From: an uncultured Erysipelotrichaceae bacterium
GTDB taxonomy: Bacteria > Bacillota_I > Bacilli_A > Erysipelotrichales > Erysipelotrichaceae
Length of the DNA stretch: 64,000 nt
NCBI GenBank assembly: GCA_945875435.1
Contig: CAMCKH010000005.1
Coordinates: 1 to 64,000, forward strand
Direction of reading: 5' to 3'
Shown here: in pieces, positions 1 to 37,342 of the stretch
How positions within the stretch are numbered: position 1 is the first letter of the stretch
Layout: each line of letters starts with the position of its first letter
Notes under the pieces: model-generated
What the model saw: only the letters and a program-made list of their open reading frames with translations
Told to the model about the DNA's origin: nothing
Databases searched by the model: none
Program-made: the position numbers and the translations under genes

Positions 1-3000
1 TCAACAGTTACTTTAGTAGGGTTTTCTTCTCCTGTCTTAGTATAAGTTATTTCAACACTTGTAGCATCACTTGGAATAGAAACTAAGATATTTCCATTAT
101 CTCCAATTGTTACAGTTGGATCTTGAGGAGCATTTGGATTAGTAGTATCTTTGCTTGGAACCACAACTGAACCAACATCACTAGATACAACATCCCCATT
201 CTTAGCAACTACCGTTACAACAGTTCCATCTTTAACTTCACTTTCAGGAATCACAATATTTCCATCAATTACTTGAATATTAGAGCCATCTGGAACAATC
301 CAAGTGCCATTTTCTTTAGTAACTTTTACAGTAATTGGATTAGCACTTCCTTCTGGTGTATAAGTTATATCAAGTTCTGTTACATTAATTCCTGGCGGAA
401 CAATCACAACATCGCCCTTATCATTAATTGAAACATCAGAATTTCCAGGAGCAACAGCTACAATCTTCTTAGTTGTTTCTTCTGGTTGCATATAGTCAAC
501 AGAATCATCTTGATAAGTTATAGTGGTTTTACCATTATCATCTACTGATACATATTTAATAATATTAGGATATTCAATAAGAATTCTATCAATAACTTCT
601 TGTTTTTCTAAATCTGTAAGTTTAGCAGTATCTTTAACTTCAACCAATTCAATTGAAGGATTAATTCTATCCGCAATCTTTTCACCATTAGGAACACTCG
701 CTGGATCATTTGGATTACTATTTGCATTTATTTCTTCTTTATCGGTAAAACCGTCTCCATCGGTGTCTTTTAATTCTACAGTATCGGTTGCTTCAATCAC
801 ATCATTTGATCCATCTGGATAAGTTATAGTAACCTTACCTTTTTCATCAACTTGAATATTAGTTCCTGACGGAAGAGGATTATTCACTCTAATAGCTTCT
901 GATACAGCTTCTTTTTCAAGTGGAGTTAAATTTTCAGTATCCACAACACTAACTTTAGGATTGATTACAGGATTAATTCTATCAGCAATCTTTTCACCAT
1001 TAGGAATGCTTGTAGGATCGTTTGGATCACTATTTTTTTCTTTTTCCTCTTTATCAGCAAAACCATCTCCATCAGTGTCTTTTAAAGCCACTACATTTCC
1101 TGAATCAATTAAACTTTCTGATCCATCTGGATAAGTGATAGTAACACTACTATCTCTTGCAACATCAATTACAGTTCCAATAGGGAAATTATTGTTTTCT
1201 TCAATAGATTTTTTAACAGCTTCAATTTCTTCATCTGTTAAGTTATTTACATCATCAACCATAACTACATCATAGTGTATATCTTGGATTCTATCTGCCG
1301 TAGTTAATCCTTGAGGAGTCTTAGTTGGATCGTTGATATCTGTTCCTGCTTCAGTTTCTTCTTTATCACTAAATCCATCTTTATCAGTATCTTTAGCAGT
1401 TATAGTTTGATTAGGTGTTAAGAAAGTAGCAGAATTATCTGGATAGGTAATTAAAGTTCTACCATTATCTGAAACTTCAATAATAGTACCATCAGGTAAA
1501 TTATTGTTGTTTCTAATGTTTGTTTCAACTTCAGCCTTCTCTGTTGGTGTTAAGTTATTTGTATCAATAACTTCAGTTAAAGGAACTTCAAGTAAAATAA
1601 CACCTGCGGTTGTTTTGCCATCTGGGGTACTTGCAGGGTTATTAACTTCGCTACCAGCTGTTGTTTCTTCTTTATCACTAAATCCATCTTTATCAGTATC
1701 TTTAGAGATAGTAACGAAAATATCTTCGCTAGTTCCATCTTCATAAGTAACTGTTACATTAACCCCTACTTCTCCTTGATCATTAGTAGTTATTGTAGGA
1801 TCTTTAATATCAAGTTCATAACTTGGAGCTTCATTTCCATTAATTCCTGGAACAAAGACATTATTAATAACTTTTATTTTATCTTCATCAGATAATGTTT
1901 CACCAACTTGATCCTTAGAAGTTATTATTGGATCGCTATCAATAAGAGATGGTGTATATTTTTCACTATCTGCATACTTAACAGGAACTTCCACCACATC
2001 ACTTGTGTCATCTTTGTAAGTAACTGTAACATCAACAACCTTAGTTCCGTTTAGTCCTTCTTTAATGTTAGAAGTTACTTCTTTATTTTTCACTTTATCA
2101 GCAAAATCAGAAACATTAACTTTGTCAGTGATTTTGGTTTTATCAGCTTCAGGAACTTCGCTACCTACATTTGTTTCAACACTGATAGGAGCCTCTCCTT
2201 GTTCAATAATTGGTTGATATTTAAGTTTATCTTTTTGTTTAACAGGAACATCAACTTCATCAAAAGTTCCATCATCATAAGTAACTTTAACTACTAAAAC
2301 AGGTCCATTATCTCTTTGTTCAATTACTTTATCTGCTTCAATTTCCTTAGTAACGTTTGGATTACCTGGAATAGTTACAGCATTTTTAATAGCTTCTTTT
2401 TCTTCGTTAGTAAGATTTCCTCCAACAGTATCATTTGAATCAATTAAAACAACAGTAGCAGCAGGATTATATTTAACTGAATCTTTTTGCTTAAATGTAA
2501 CAGGTACTGTTTCAGATGAACTATCTGGGTAAGTTATAGTAACCTCACCATTATCTGCAACAGTAAATTGGGTATCTGCAGGGAACTTAGAAGTATTATC
2601 ATTATTCTTATTAGCTTCTTTTAAAGCATTGATGATTAAGTTTTTATCTTCTGGAGTAGTTGGTGTTTCTCCATCTATTAAAACTCTATTAGGTTCAGTT
2701 ACATTTGTTTCATCAGCTAAAGTATTAAAGCTAACTTTAACACTAACTTGTTTTTCATGAGGGATAAATCCATCTTTAACATCTTGGCTAGCAGTATCTG
2801 GAGCCTTAGTTCTAACAGTTACCGCAACAATTTGATCTTTACCACTTGTAGCAGCAGTATCAGGAATTATAACATCATAATCCACCACATCATCACCAAT
2901 ATCTCCCTTAGCAAAATTCAATTTCGCTTTAACATCGTCAGCAGTTAAAGGTTCATTATATCCTTTTACGATTGGAGTATCTGGATCATTAACAGTTACA

Positions 3001-6000
3001 TCAACAACACGAACATTAAATGCATTAGATAAACTTTCTGCACCTAAAGTATCAGTCGCTTTAAATTTAGTAATGTAGTTTCCAACTGCTTTATTATTTG
3101 AAACACTACCACTTATATCTATGGTTTTATTTGTAGGATCAGTGAATTTTGGAGTTAAAACAAGACCTAAATTGCTGTCAGTTCCATCATTATTCACAAT
3201 CTTAATAGTATCAACACCATTAGTATCAGTTACCACAGATGAGGTTATAGCATTTGGAATTTCTACACCTTTAAATAATACTAAATCCTTAGGAGCAGTA
3301 AAGGTTGGAGCTTCGTTAGTAGGGTCTTGTCCGTTTAACGCACTTTTAGCTAATATCAAGTCATTTAAAGCCTTATTGACTTCATCTTGAGTAGCATCAT
3401 TCTTAGCAAGAATTTCTCTAGCTTTTTCTGCTGCATTATCATATGTTTGTCTAAGATCTTCTCTAGCACCAGTATATTTAGTTCCTTGTTTTACTCCATC
3501 AACTAAATCATATTCTTGTTGTAGATATTGTTTATTAACATTTTGAGTAGGAGCAGTGATAGTAGGATCTTGAAGTCCATCAATTGCTTTTAATAACTCA
3601 TCTGTAAGATTATCCACTTTAGATTTTTCAGCATTTTCTCCACTTTCTTTAGGAGTTACTCTTTCAGCGTTTGTTAAGGCATTGATTAAAGCATTTTTGC
3701 TTTCTTCTGTTTTACCGTTGAAATCAGGTCCATCTTTAACTCGTTTAGCAAATTCAACTAAATCTTTTAAATATTTCATTGAATCATCTAATTCTTGAGC
3801 TTCTGAAACAATAAGATTTAAGCTAGTTTCAGTTACTCCAGTTTCATCTGATGTACCTGCACCTGCACTATTTCCATCTATTGAATCTTTAATAGCTTGT
3901 TTTTGAGCGTTATTTAAATTTTCTAAAGCATCAATTTTCGCTTTAGCTTCGTTAACTTTCGCAGCACCTTTTGCTAATTCAATAATTAAATCAATTTCTT
4001 TAGTGCTAGTCGCATTATTAATTTGTTCTTTAAATTCTTGTTTTTTAGTTGAATCTAAACCACTAATCGCATCAATAACTTTTTTAGCTTCTTCTTTTTC
4101 ATTATTAGCTTCTTCTGCAGCTTGATTTTTCTCATTCGCTGCAATCGCATCTTTAACAAATTGTTCTACTTGAGCAGGAGTAGCAGCACCATTAATTTTA
4201 TTTGTGAAATCTTGTCTTTCTGCTTCAGTCAATTTATTTAAAGGTGTAATATCGGCAATTCCTTTTTCTTTAGCTTTTTGTAAATTAGTTGCGGTTGCAT
4301 TATCAACAATATTTTTAACTTCTTCTTTTGTGAATTTAGAGTCAATTTGTTGTTTTGCATTTTCTCTTTCTTCTGGTGTTAGATATTTTAATTTATCTAT
4401 TTGTGCTTTTGCTTCATCTTTAGCTTTTTGAGTATCGCTTGCTTTCTTCTTAGCTTCACCAACAATTCTTTCAATAGTTTCTTGACTGTCTACACCATTT
4501 ATTTGGTTTTTGTAAGTTTCTTTATCAGTTGGTGATAATTGTAGATTATTTATTTCATTTTGAGCATTTGTTTTTAAACTTTGCAATGGATTTACACGAT
4601 TAAACAACATATCCTCAGTTATCAAACCTACTTCTACTTGTGAATCTCCTTTTACTGAAGGTCCTTTTACTAAAATACCCTCAATACCATTAGTTCCACG
4701 TTTTAATTCCGTACCCCAATAGCTAGTTTTATCCATATCATATCTAGTATTATCTCCATTATATAGAGTACCATAGTTGTTAATAGCAGTTCCACGATGA
4801 AATTCTCTATTACCTGCATTTACATTCTTATTAGTCAATGCGTTCATTTGTTGTCTCCACTGTTCTTCTGTTGGAGTTCCCTCTACATCAATTTTATTAG
4901 GCAATTGAATACGAGTGTAATTTTTATTAAGAGAACCAATAGGATCGTTATTAGCATACTCATTATTATTTTCATTTAAAGAGAAATATTGCTTGTAATT
5001 ATCATTCCCTGCTACTGGAACTTTAGGGTTTCTTAATCTGTCATATGGATCTTCTGCCATCATATAATTAAGTGTTGTATCCACAACTGCTGGTTGTGAA
5101 GTTTGAGCAGTATTAACTCTCTTCGTTACAACATCTGTTATTGGAATTTCGCCATATGTTCCGTCAATATATTTAACTTTAACAACTCCACTATTTCCAT
5201 TATTTGGAATTATAAAACTATTGCTTTCATATAAAATAACAGGTTTTTTCAAACTGTTTGTGCTTCCAAATAAATCTGGGTTAGCGTCTTTTATTTTTTG
5301 AATAATTGAATTTTTATCTTGTTCTGTTAAAGTATCTAAATTATTTACAATAGTTTTTTCAGGTAAAGTTAATGGGAATCTTAAATTATAATTACGATTG
5401 TCAGGTGTTTCACCAAATACAGCTTCATAGTTATTCCATCCCCCTGCAGGTTGGTTATAACCTAAAATAAAGTTCATTGGAGCATTGTAATCTTTAACTC
5501 TTGCTCTAAATTTATAAACAGCAGTCTTTTTACTTCCACCTCTATCATCAATATAAATTGAACGAGATAATTTCTTTATTTGTTCTTCATAAATATTACT
5601 AGTATCAGGAGTTGTATCAGTTTGGTATCTCCAATCAATACGAGACCAGTCGTGAACCCATCTATCATGTTCCATCCCAACTCGGTCTACAATACCACTA
5701 TTTGGACCAGTAACTTTATTACCAACAGCGCCATTATCAGTTAAAACACTACCAACACCATCTGGATTAGGACGAACATACTTTTTATACGCAACCCAAG
5801 GCTCTGTGTTTGGTTCAGTAGGTTGTGCTGTCCAAGTAGTATATTTTCTTGTTACCGAAGGAGTATTAGTATCCCAAGGTTCATATTCATCACGAGTAAT
5901 AAATTCTGGTTCATAAAGTGAATTAGGAATATTAAACAATACATAATGACGATCAAATCTATCGTGTCTTTCATTGAAAGTCATTGTCACATTTACATAA

Positions 6001-6302
6001 TGTTCGTCTTTGCTAACTTCCTCAATATTATATAGAATATTAAACGTGTCAAAATTCGCATAACGATTTGGTCTATCACCTCTTGCATATTGGATAATAC
6101 CCACATTTGTCTGTGTAAGTGATCCATCGTTTGCTAAAATAGGATCTCCTTGTCTATTAAAGACATTTACTCCCGCATCTATTGCTGAAGTGTTAGCTAA
6201 AATAAAAGTACTCGATATAGCAAGAGAAACTACTCCGATAGTTAATTTTCTAATGCTAAACTGACTACGTTTATTAAAAAATAATTTTGTTGTTTTTTTC
6301 AT
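1..6302 (-). CDS. Giant YSIRK-type surface adhesin, C-terminus beyond left edge
   Basis: An open frame of 2,100 codons runs from ATG 6302 off the left edge with no stop, so the protein is longer than seen and any LPXTG anchor is out of view. AAGGAGG lies just upstream of the ATG. Residues 1-45 are a YSIRK-type signal peptide (FSIRKLTIGVVSLAI). Residues about 60-570 are an unrecognised N-terminal region. Residues about 575-835 hold five three-helix GA-like (albumin-binding type) modules, for example LKYLTPEERENAKQQID. Residues about 840-985 hold two FIVAR-like helical repeats. The rest is beta-rich stalk: Ig/Rib-like segments, then four DxDxDG calcium-type thrombospondin-3-like motifs (DTDKDGFSDKEE, DTDGDGFTDKEE) near residues 1535, 1636, 1742 and 1842, spaced about 105 residues apart. 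It is probably secreted, wall-anchored and adhesive. The binding partner is unknown; albumin binding is only inferred from the GA-like modules. Confidence 0.93.
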   Translation of the reverse strand, partial: MKKTTKLFFNKRSQFSIRKLTIGVVSLAISSTFILANTSAIDAGVNVFNRQGDPILANDGSLTQTNVGIIQYARGDRPNRYANFDTFNILYNIEEVSKDEHYVNVTMTFNERHDRFDRHYVLFNIPNSLYEPEFITRDEYEPWDTNTPSVTRKYTTWTAQPTEPNTEPWVAYKKYVRPNPDGVGSVLTDNGAVGNKVTGPNSGIVDRVGMEHDRWVHDWSRIDWRYQTDTTPDTSNIYEEQIKKLSRSIYIDDRGGSKKTAVYKFRARVKDYNAPMNFILGYNQPAGGWNNYEAVFGETPDNRNYNLRFPLTLPEKTIVNNLDTLTEQDKNSIIQKIKDANPDLFGSTNSLKKPVILYESNSFIIPNNGNSGVVKVKYIDGTYGEIPITDVVTKRVNTAQTSQPAVVDTTLNYMMAEDPYDRLRNPKVPVAGNDNYKQYFSLNENNNEYANNDPIGSLNKNYTRIQLPNKIDVEGTPTEEQWRQQMNALTNKNVNAGNREFHRGTAINNYGTLYNGDNTRYDMDKTSYWGTELKRGTNGIEGILVKGPSVKGDSQVEVGLITEDMLFNRVNPLQSLKTNAQNEINNLQLSPTDKETYKNQINGVDSQETIERIVGEAKKKASDTQKAKDEAKAQIDKLKYLTPEERENAKQQIDSKFTKEEVKNIVDNATATNLQKAKEKGIADITPLNKLTEAERQDFTNKINGAATPAQVEQFVKDAIAANEKNQAAEEANNEKEEAKKVIDAISGLDSTKKQEFKEQINNATSTKEIDLIIELAKGAAKVNEAKAKIDALENLNNAQKQAIKDSIDGNSAGAGTSDETGVTETSLNLIVSEAQELDDSMKYLKDLVEFAKRVKDGPDFNGKTEESKNALINALTNAERVTPKESGENAEKSKVDNLTDELLKAIDGLQDPTITAPTQNVNKQYLQQEYDLVDGVKQGTKYTGAREDLRQTYDNAAEKAREILAKNDATQDEVNKALNDLILAKSALNGQDPTNEAPTFTAPKDLVLFKGVEIPNAITSSVVTDTNGVDTIKIVNNDGTDSNLGLVLTPKFTDPTNKTIDISGSVSNNKAVGNYITKFKATDTLGAESLSNAFNVRVVDVTVNDPDTPIVKGYNEPLTADDVKAKLNFAKGDIGDDVVDYDVIIPDTAATSGKDQIVAVTVRTKAPDTASQDVKDGFIPHEKQVSVKVSFNTLADETNVTEPNRVLIDGETPTTPEDKNLIINALKEANKNNDNTSKFPADTQFTVADNGEVTITYPDSSSETVPVTFKQKDSVKYNPAATVVLIDSNDTVGGNLTNEEKEAIKNAVTIPGNPNVTKEIEADKVIEQRDNGPVLVVKVTYDDGTFDEVDVPVKQKDKLKYQPIIEQGEAPISVETNVGSEVPEADKTKITDKVNVSDFADKVKNKEVTSNIKEGLNGTKVVDVTVTYKDDTSDVVEVPVKYADSEKYTPSLIDSDPIITSKDQVGETLSDEDKIKVINNVFVPGINGNEAPSYELDIKDPTITTNDQGEVGVNVTVTYEDGTSEDIFVTISKDTDKDGFSDKEETTAGSEVNNPASTPDGKTTAGVILLEVPLTEVIDTNNLTPTEKAEVETNIRNNNNLPDGTIIEVSDNGRTLITYPDNSATFLTPNQTITAKDTDKDGFSDKEETEAGTDINDPTKTPQGLTTADRIQDIHYDVVMVDDVNNLTDEEIEAVKKSIEENNNFPIGTVIDVARDSSVTITYPDGSESLIDSGNVVALKDTDGDGFADKEEKEKNSDPNDPTSIPNGEKIADRINPVINPKVSVVDTENLTPLEKEAVSEAIRVNNPLPSGTNIQVDEKGKVTITYPDGSNDVIEATDTVELKDTDGDGFTDKEEINANSNPNDPASVPNGEKIADRINPSIELVEVKDTAKLTDLEKQEVIDRILIEYPNIIKYVSVDDNGKTTITYQDDSVDYMQPEETTKKIVAVAPGNSDVSINDKGDVVIVPPGINVTELDITYTPEGSANPITVKVTKENGTWIVPDGSNIQVIDGNIVIPESEVKDGTVVTVVAKNGDVVSSDVGSVVVPSKDTTNPNAPQDPTVTIGDNGNILVSIPSDATSVEITYTKTGEENPTKVTV

Positions 6303-6344: not shown

Positions 6345-6380
6345 ATATGAATGGGTGTTTCCCTTTACACCAATTCATAT
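6345..6380 (-). promoter_or_regulatory. Hairpin in adhesin 5' leader
   Basis: Arms 6345-6358 (ATATGAAT, one mismatch, GGTGT) and 6367-6380 (ACACC, mismatch, ATTCATAT) form a 13-bp stem with one mismatch and an 8-nt loop. It lies 43-78 nt upstream of the adhesin ATG and has no U-tract, so it is not an ordinary terminator. It could be an mRNA-stability or leader structure, or an operator palindrome. The upper arm runs into the (AT)12 repeat. Confidence 0.6.
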
Positions 6381-6400
6381 ATATATATATATATATATAT
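6377..6400. repeat. (AT)12 microsatellite in adhesin leader
   Basis: Twelve uninterrupted AT dinucleotides lie between the predicted -10 box (6414-6419) and the leader hairpin of the giant adhesin gene. Such a tract is prone to replication slippage. Its position suggests, but does not prove, that length changes could tune expression. Confidence 0.9.
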
Positions 6401-35379: not shown

Positions 35380-35409
35380 TAAGAAAAACCTCAATAATTG
35401 AGGTTTTTT
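35380..35409 (-). terminator. Terminator after CPBP protease gene
   Basis: Stem AAAAACCTCAA/TTGAGGTTTTT with a T-rich tail on the minus strand, between the CPBP gene and the ezrA promoter. Confidence 0.85.
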
Positions 35410-35423
35410 ACAAAAATATTATT

Positions 35424-36143
35424 TTATAATTTAGGTGCGATAAATAATAAAATAACCACAAATAAATTATTTAATAAATGTATAAACATTGGCGATAATA
35501 TTGTTTCGTCTTTTTTAAGAAAGAAACCAAAAGCACCACCTAATAATGAATATTGAACAATATAAATTAAAGCTAAGAAATTACCTTGAGATATACTAGG
35601 TAAAAGGTGCATAAAACCAAAAATTAAACTTGAAACAATTAAGGCAAAATAATAACCTTTACCACTTAATTTTTTCATAATTATTTCACGATAAACAATT
35701 TCTTCAATAATAGGTGCAAAAAACACTATCATAAAAAACAACGGTATAGGAAATCTTTTAAATTGTGCAATAATAATTTCTTGATTATCTGCGGTTACTT
35801 TAAATACAATTTGAATTATTGCACCTATAAGCATATTACCTAAAAGTATAAAAACAAATCTAATAAGGTTCTTCTTAAAAAAATCACCTAAATTATCTTT
35901 AATTTTATTGTATCCCGAAACAAATACATCTTTTGAAAGTAAAACTACCACAATGAAAAAAGGAATCGAAACAGTCATTGTGCTAAAAATATTTAAAAGT
36001 TCTAGATCGTTTAAAGGGAAATTAATAATACCAAAGATAAAACCTAAAACATAGACAGATAAAATCGGAAAAATTAATTGTGTTCCTAAAAAATAACCCA
36101 ACAATATTCCATTTTCTTTTTTTCGTGTAAAAATTTTTTCCAT
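35424..36143 (-). CDS. CPBP-family intramembrane glutamic endopeptidase
   Basis: A 239-residue protein with six to eight membrane helices and the CPBP (Abi/Rce1-like) motifs: EEIVYREIIM (EExxxR), FGFMHLL (FxxxH) and HLLNNLF (HxxxN). Family members act as membrane proteases; in Gram-positives many are linked to bacteriocin maturation or self-immunity, but no bacteriocin gene is seen nearby. AAGGAGG precedes the ATG. A run of 26 T on the coding strand sits 33-58 nt before the ATG, where the promoter spacer should be, so expression may vary with tract length. Confidence 0.9.
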   Translation of the reverse strand: MEKIFTRKKENGILLGYFLGTQLIFPILSVYVLGFIFGIINFPLNDLELLNIFSTMTVSIPFFIVVVLLSKDVFVSGYNKIKDNLGDFFKKNLIRFVFILLGNMLIGAIIQIVFKVTADNQEIIIAQFKRFPIPLFFMIVFFAPIIEEIVYREIIMKKLSGKGYYFALIVSSLIFGFMHLLPSISQGNFLALIYIVQYSLLGGAFGFFLKKDETILSPMFIHLLNNLFVVILLFIAPKL

Positions 36144-36175
36144 ATTTCCTCCTTCACACTTTATTAGTATATATC

Positions 36176-36201
36176 AAAAAAAAAAAAAAAAAAAAAAAAA
36201 A
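36176..36201. repeat. A26 homopolymer in CPBP gene promoter
   Basis: Twenty-six consecutive A on the plus strand (T on the coding strand). It lies immediately before a TATACT -10-like box (about 36166-36171) of the CPBP gene, so it fills the -35 and spacer region. By far the longest homopolymer in the window. Confidence 0.9.
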
Positions 36202-36204
36202 CAA

Positions 36205-36237
36205 ATAAATAAAAAAGTAAAGTTTTTAAACTTTACT
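36205..36237 (-). terminator. Terminator overlapping AI-2E gene stop
   Basis: Stem AGTAAAGTT/AACTTTACT then TTTTTTATTT on the minus strand. The TAA stop of the AI-2E gene lies inside the 5' arm. Confidence 0.85.
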
Positions 36238-37342
36238 CATTTTTATTTTCCAGTGTTCTATAAGTCCATTTCGCAATTAATGAATATATAACCGCAAAGA
36301 TAGGTATTCCAATAAACATCCCTACAAATCCAAGCATACCCCCACCAATTAAAATCGCAAAGATAACCCAAAAACTAGGTAAACCAAGTTTATCACCCAA
36401 AATATAAGGTCCTAAAACATTACCATCAAATTGTTGAATGATTAGAATTAATATCGCAAAAATAATTGATTGACTAGGATTTATTACAAATAAAATAATA
36501 ATTCCAGGAATAGCACCAACTGTAGCTCCAAATACCGGAATTACATTAGTTATACCTACAATAGTTGAAATCAATAAAGCATATTCTAATTTTAAAAGGC
36601 TCATCGAAACAAAACAAATAATTCCAACTAAGATAGAATCGATAATTTTACCCACCACAAAGTTGTTAAAAGTTTGGAGCGAAAAAACCGCAATATTAAA
36701 TACTTCTTCTACAATTTTTTTATTTAAAATAGCACTGAAGAATGATTTAAACTGCCTTACAATTCTTTCTTTGTCCAACAAAGCATAAACCATTATCGCA
36801 AAACCAATCACAAAACCAAAGAATTTATTCACAAAAATTAATGAATAGTTCAATATTGACGGAGTAAACGCCTTTAATCCATCCAAAAATTGATTAATAA
36901 TATTTTCTGAATTAGTTTCAATAAAATCAAAAATTGTTTTAGTAAATTCTTTATTAATAATTACGATATTATGACTGTTTTCTCTTTGAGAAATGCTGCC
37001 AAAAGATGAATTTAAGTTAGTAACACTATCAATAATTGAAGGTATGATTAAATAAGACAGGAATAAAATTAATAGAACCACTATTAAAATTGAGATTGTT
37101 ACACCAATACCTCTAGTTTTTTTAATTTTTGTATATTTTTTTAATAATTTTTCAACATTATCTAAGAGTGGAAGAACTAAAATCATTAATGAAAAACCCA
37201 CAATAAAAGGGAAAAGAATATCGGTAAGTTTGCTTAAAAAACCTAACCAAATACTCATATTCTTTAAAAAGAAATAAAATGATATTAATATTATTCCACT
37301 AAAAAGTAGAGAATTATTTTTATTTTCAAAATTTAATTTCAT
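36233..37342 (-). CDS. AI-2E family transporter
   Basis: A 369-residue membrane protein of the AI-2E (YueF/YtvI/PerM-like) family: two N-terminal helix pairs, an extracellular segment around 110-155 and a C-terminal group of helices with GKIIDSILVG, ITNVIPVFGATVGAIPGIII and DGNVLGPYILGDKLGLPSFWV. Family members export small molecules or ions (some are sodium/proton antiporters). The substrate cannot be told. It starts 3 nt after asnA with no ribosome site, so it probably relies on coupling. Last gene of the phosphoesterase-asnA operon. Confidence 0.9.
   Translation of the reverse strand: MKLNFENKNNSLLFSGIILISFYFFLKNMSIWLGFLSKLTDILFPFIVGFSLMILVLPLLDNVEKLLKKYTKIKKTRGIGVTISILIVVLLILFLSYLIIPSIIDSVTNLNSSFGSISQRENSHNIVIINKEFTKTIFDFIETNSENIINQFLDGLKAFTPSILNYSLIFVNKFFGFVIGFAIMVYALLDKERIVRQFKSFFSAILNKKIVEEVFNIAVFSLQTFNNFVVGKIIDSILVGIICFVSMSLLKLEYALLISTIVGITNVIPVFGATVGAIPGIIILFVINPSQSIIFAILILIIQQFDGNVLGPYILGDKLGLPSFWVIFAILIGGGMLGFVGMFIGIPIFAVIYSLIAKWTYRTLENKNE

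Follow-up and report, generated by a model that had tools for sequence, protein, structure and literature searches.

The poly-A promoters of the Mycoplasma hyorhinis vlp genes are phase variable and belong to the spacer type. For the fimbriae of Haemophilus influenzae, a phase-variable promoter of this type, with a repeat between the -35 and -10 elements, is cited in work on Bifidobacterium breve (PMC9187656). In B. breve itself, G-tract slippage controls sortase pili through intragenic tracts of G10 to G11 and frame control (PMC9187656). In Helicobacter pylori, an intergenic T tract at the sabA promoter changes in length by slipped-strand mispairing, and transcription is affected (PMC4081817), while the length of a poly-A tract adjoining the -10 box of nspA sets the mRNA level in Neisseria meningitidis (PMC6389960). 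Promoter control by slippage is already known in other bacteria, but for the Bacillota lineage studied here we found no report of a repertoire of the kind described below, and literature on phase variation in Erysipelotrichaceae or Erysipelothrix yielded nothing on such repeats.

We analyzed a window of 64,000 nucleotides from an uncultured Erysipelotrichaceae bacterium (GCA_945875435.1, contig CAMCKH010000005.1, positions 1 to 64,000) in the context of its draft genome, the only one in its genus, which consists of 20 contigs and 1.17 Mb at 96% completeness. Our reading, which we consider somewhat more likely than not, is that a T26 homopolymer in this window is a hypermutable promoter repeat of a monocistronic CPBP protease gene and one locus in a genome-wide slippage repertoire of a bacterium with no detectable MutS1 or MutL. 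The tract is an A26 run on the plus strand (36176 to 36201) and hence T26 in the coding direction of the CPBP gene (35424 to 36143, minus strand), its exact length being uncertain in a draft assembly. Read along the minus strand, the region runs ...TTTATTTG-T26-GATATATACTAATAAAGTGTGAAGGAGGAAAT-ATG. As an earlier note on this DNA had stated, the tract lies just before a -10-like box, TATACT (36166 to 36171, minus strand), from which it is separated by 4 nt (GATA), and it does take the place of the whole -35/spacer region, since, with a spacer of 17 nt, the -35 hexamer would fall at 36189 to 36194, where all letters are T. The only candidate -35 is TTGTTT, which spans the 5' edge of the tract (36199 to 36204, minus strand) and matches TTGACA at three of six positions. 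Transcription would start near 36159 to 36160, and a Shine-Dalgarno-like GAAGGAGG (36148 to 36155, minus strand) follows, with AGGAGG just upstream of the ATG at 36143. The intergenic gap between the upstream AI-2E family transporter gene and the CPBP gene is 89 nt and holds the tract with no room for another promoter; thus, if the CPBP gene has its own promoter, T26 is part of it. The tract has the placement of a promoter repeat, adjoining a -10-like box that is a candidate for use and covering the -35 position. Translational switching was considered and rejected, since, however long the tract is, its final T and the GA behind it give a TGA that precedes the ATG in the same frame.

In having a homopolymer directly upstream of the -10 box, this locus resembles nspA, but the nspA tract comprises 5 to 6 A, and phase variation was not detected there, whereas 26 T are found here. 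Because the nspA tract sets expression without observed switching, it cautions against assuming that T26 is unstable. In its genome, T26 is of a slippage-prone length, far beyond what is expected by chance. Run spectra from 464 kb of the genome include 626 A/T runs of 7 nt, 104 of 8 nt, 4 of 9 nt, and none of 10 to 13 nt, followed by three outliers, one each of 14, 26, and 40 nt; apart from these, A/T runs longer than 8 nt are avoided. Under a first-order Markov model, about 1.6e-4 runs of at least 26 nt are expected per genome of 1.17 Mb. The earlier note had also put the length far above any other run in the window, and the next longest there is indeed 9 nt. A genome-wide pattern search found only four A/T runs of at least 10 nt.

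The shortest of these, T14 (C6:17026-17039), begins immediately behind a perfect TTGACA and is followed by TATAAT. The gene downstream encodes a secreted coiled-coil protein of 1126 aa with a weak match to PgrA-type surface exclusion proteins. T40 (C15:16-55) lies upstream of TTGACA-16-TAAAAT in front of a sortase pilus operon encoding, in order, a signal peptidase, an InlB-repeat/SpaA tip protein, a SpaA-type major pilin, a sortase, a minor pilin, and a sortase. The tip-protein gene (L135:958-6297) has an in-frame stop at 1438-1440, and its assembled copy is broken. T37 (C16:92-128) is found at another contig end, and the 35-nt leader behind it occurs elsewhere only at C15 (L018:1-150, L019:1-130); what sets the C16 copy apart is mainly that isolated G and C are missing, a pattern of reads that degrade past a long homopolymer. 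Because this leader is found at no other place and its C16 version resembles a degraded form of the C15 one, we did not retain T37 and T40 as separate loci, and we infer that C15 and C16 are neighboring contigs carrying the two sides of one tract of about 40 T. T14, T26, and the tract of about 40 T each precede a gene whose coding strand carries the T run, and for T14 and the tract of about 40 T the targets are surface genes.

These contig ends also bear on whether T26 could be an assembly or sequencing artefact, with a true tract much shorter or with misjoined flanks. A draft genome in 20 contigs, two of which end at T37 and T40 with a degraded copy of one leader, gives some reason to consider this. 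However, T26 has clean flanks on both sides and lies within a contig of 79.6 kb, the breaking of contigs at a different T tract points to long tracts as genuine obstacles, and repeats of the G and AT classes are placed alike in this genome. We therefore regard an artefact as highly improbable.

Genome-wide searches for G runs of at least 7 nt and for (AT)8 or longer repeats found 13 further places. Two of these have exactly the geometry of the spacer-type promoters: a G11 between TTGACA and TATTAT with a spacer of 20 (C4:68266-68276, L161:2067-2077), upstream of a gene for a secreted coiled-coil protein, and a (TA)8 that takes up the spacer from TTGAAT to TATAAT (C7:11779, L153:1779-1794), upstream of a gene whose secreted product has at least 555 aa and no Pfam match. 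The reading frame of the coiled-coil protein is interrupted further down. Within the window, an (AT)12 (6377 to 6400, minus strand) lies upstream of a giant gene for a YSIRK-signal surface protein (1 to 6302, minus strand, start at 6302), which is open for 2100 codons up to the contig start; AT repeats of this length are expected about 4e-6 times per genome, and we consider it a candidate second contingency repeat in the window. A (TA)10 (C11, about 890-909) is upstream of another surface protein gene, a family 2 glycosyltransferase gene has a G11 at its 5' end (C4:3513-3523), and a G9 (C17, about 4221-4229) is about 200 nt upstream of another glycosyltransferase gene. Three (AT)9 repeats lie in the 5' coding ends of genes for an LtaS-like sulfatase (C3:69245, L157), a Big_3 surface protein (C9:653, L154), and a 428-aa membrane protein (C14:21249, L156), where a gain or loss of one unit would shift the reading frame. 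One G8 is within the gene of a GH101 surface enzyme, and another (C1:120548-120555, L164:2049-2056) marks the point where the frame of a type I restriction specificity gene (hsdS) breaks into two halves; this gene likely encodes a switchable specificity subunit. The last two places, an (AT)10 (C3:94520) and a G7 (C13), lie between genes, and neither has an obvious target. The first-order model expects 0.003 G runs of at least 11 nt and 0.03 AT repeats of at least 16 nt per genome; it expects about five G runs of at least 7 nt, so that chance may account for the G7 and perhaps for one G8. Repeats of these other classes occupy the spacers of promoters, or the first part of the coding sequence, in genes for surface proteins, glycosyltransferases, the LtaS-like enzyme, and hsdS.

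With the T tracts included, about fifteen repeats, falling into three classes (T, G, and AT), are contingency candidates in this Gram-positive, low-GC lineage without detectable mismatch repair. No match to MutL was found in the genome, nor one to MutS1; the sole MutS-like match scores far below the MutS1 cutoff and, by our reading of its sequence, is MutS2. At 96% completeness, MutS1 and MutL are unlikely to have both been merely missed. We rejected the idea that loss of mismatch repair predicts which members of the family carry long T tracts, since tracts of at least 20 T are found in 5 of 67 genomes without a MutL match over the cutoff and in 15 of 206 others, showing no association. The absence of MutL is thus permissive at most. 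Since T26 belongs to a set of about fifteen long repeats that mostly accompany surface-related genes, in a genome with no detectable mismatch repair, sister cells probably come to differ in CPBP expression by random switching or tuning.

The change in expression could come about in the following way. Replication slippage would alter the length of T26, and the alteration should act at the level of transcription, since the tract is outside the CPBP reading frame. Upstream of TATACT, the only recognizable sigma anchor is the TTG at the tract's 5' border; if it serves as the -35 element, tract length would set the -35/-10 spacer. To score tract lengths, we used a promoter matrix trained on 98 upstream regions of the genome, which is characterized by a TTG-led -35, TATAAT, and a spacer of 17 in two thirds. 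At T26 the CPBP promoter scores 3.2 (as TTTTTT-17-TATACT), about the lower quartile of real regions, and the score peaks at 6.4 for T16, which places TTG 17 nt from TATACT. This peak and the repeat-filled spacers of the G11 and (TA)8 promoters lead us to propose a spacing switch, in which T15 to T17 (spacers of 16 to 18) would be on, with T16 (spacer 17) best, and the assembled T26 (spacer 27) would be weak or off. Compared with established spacer-type promoters, the CPBP promoter has only TTG at the tract edge as its -35, and its assembled spacer is 27 nt; that T26 is 10 nt off the predicted optimum counts against a contingency role, as does the lack of length variants in the one draft genome of the genus. 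The tract with its outlier length and position, the intact gene, the other repeats, and the missing repair genes are observations; that the tract is unstable, that this promoter is used, which way the effect goes, and what part the protease plays are inferences.

The main alternative to a spacing switch is graded tuning as in sabA, with the T tract acting as a curved or UP-like element beside a -10-only promoter, so that its length would phase upstream DNA with RNA polymerase and expression would not be on or off. T26 lacks a consensus -35, and sabA itself is a precedent (PMC4081817): both loci have a T tract at the promoter, with slippage-driven length change found in sabA and proposed for T26. 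The tract of about 40 T in front of the pilus operon, which is upstream of a complete TTGACA-16-TAAAAT, is even placed as in sabA. In contrast, the sabA tract, with stepwise effects around T9 to T18, lies upstream of the -35, a position that T26 does not have, since it occupies the -35 and spacer itself, and other repeats of this genome fill spacers. The two also differ in target, a surface adhesin in sabA and a membrane protease here. We therefore consider graded tuning of the CPBP gene unlikely and keep the spacing switch as the preferred mechanism.

The product of the gene is a CPBP (Rce1-like) intramembrane protease of 239 aa (Pfam PF02517, E 9e-18), in which the EExxxR, FxxxH, and HxxxN motifs are intact and the motif columns are invariant among relatives, so that both the family match and all three motifs assign it to this family. 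A terminator-like hairpin found by the terminator scan downstream of the gene, before ezrA (35384 to 35408, minus strand), suggests a monocistronic unit. Among Gram-positive CPBP proteins, MroQ processes a peptide pheromone and Abx1 acts on a sensor kinase (reviewed in PMC10482373). The protein described here is a membrane protease that may or may not act at the cell surface or in host or phage interactions; at the other repeats of the genome, surface genes prevail. By analogy with staphylococcal MroQ, the protease could be the contingency target, with slippage of T26 setting its level and thereby a wider surface or signaling state, a speculative idea to which we give little weight. If it were true, the CPBP protease would vary alongside pili, adhesins, glycosyltransferases, an LtaS-like enzyme, and hsdS that are switched directly. 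On the main reading, too, a possible regulatory protease is added to the genes that may vary via promoter slippage. B. breve is a comparable system, a Gram-positive gut commensal with sortase pili and several tracts in its genome, with slippage control demonstrated there and proposed here. However, its tracts are intragenic, whereas here an intergenic tract of about 40 T precedes the pilus operon and T26 precedes the CPBP gene. Each repeat locus of the present genome gives rise to length-specific predictions.

The view in the earlier note, that the tract is likely unstable and lies where slippage is known to switch promoters in other bacteria, finds partial support in the anatomy of the tract and its genomic company, but a terminator-like hairpin 13 nt upstream of the tract had been overlooked. 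This AT-rich hairpin spans the stop codon of the AI-2E gene (36215 to 36238, minus strand; fold -9.2 kcal/mol, z -1.9), is absent from the terminator-scan list, and counts against a contingency role. In addition, about a third of the long T tracts in relatives are at terminators, with 8 of 23 tracts of at least 20 T beginning directly at a terminator stem by our reading. T26 might therefore be inert, an overgrown T-rich tail of the hairpin, with the CPBP gene transcribed by read-through or from TATACT whatever the tract length. However, the hairpin has its own T-rich tail, the 13 nt between its stem and T26 separate the tract from the place of an intrinsic-terminator U-tract, and the two other long T tracts of the genome are not directly behind a hairpin. 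T26 may have originated from terminator-like sequence, but where it now stands is a promoter position, and we consider an inert tract improbable. The slippage interpretation is plausible from the sequence of the locus and is strengthened by the genome-wide pattern. Conservation of the locus gives it no such help: in a comparison with 30 CPBP relatives of the family, where identity does not exceed about 36%, no A/T run of at least 9 nt was found nearby, which we also count against contingency, and no ezrA or AI-2E gene within 1.5 kb of the CPBP gene. The locus is therefore not positionally conserved in these relatives, and searches for same-species copies gave none in viral contigs and only remote relatives in genome contigs. 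Overgrown U-tracts are themselves a recurrent oddity of the family, found for example after rpsT-like and guanylate kinase-like genes (L092, L097, L102, L105, L110-L113).
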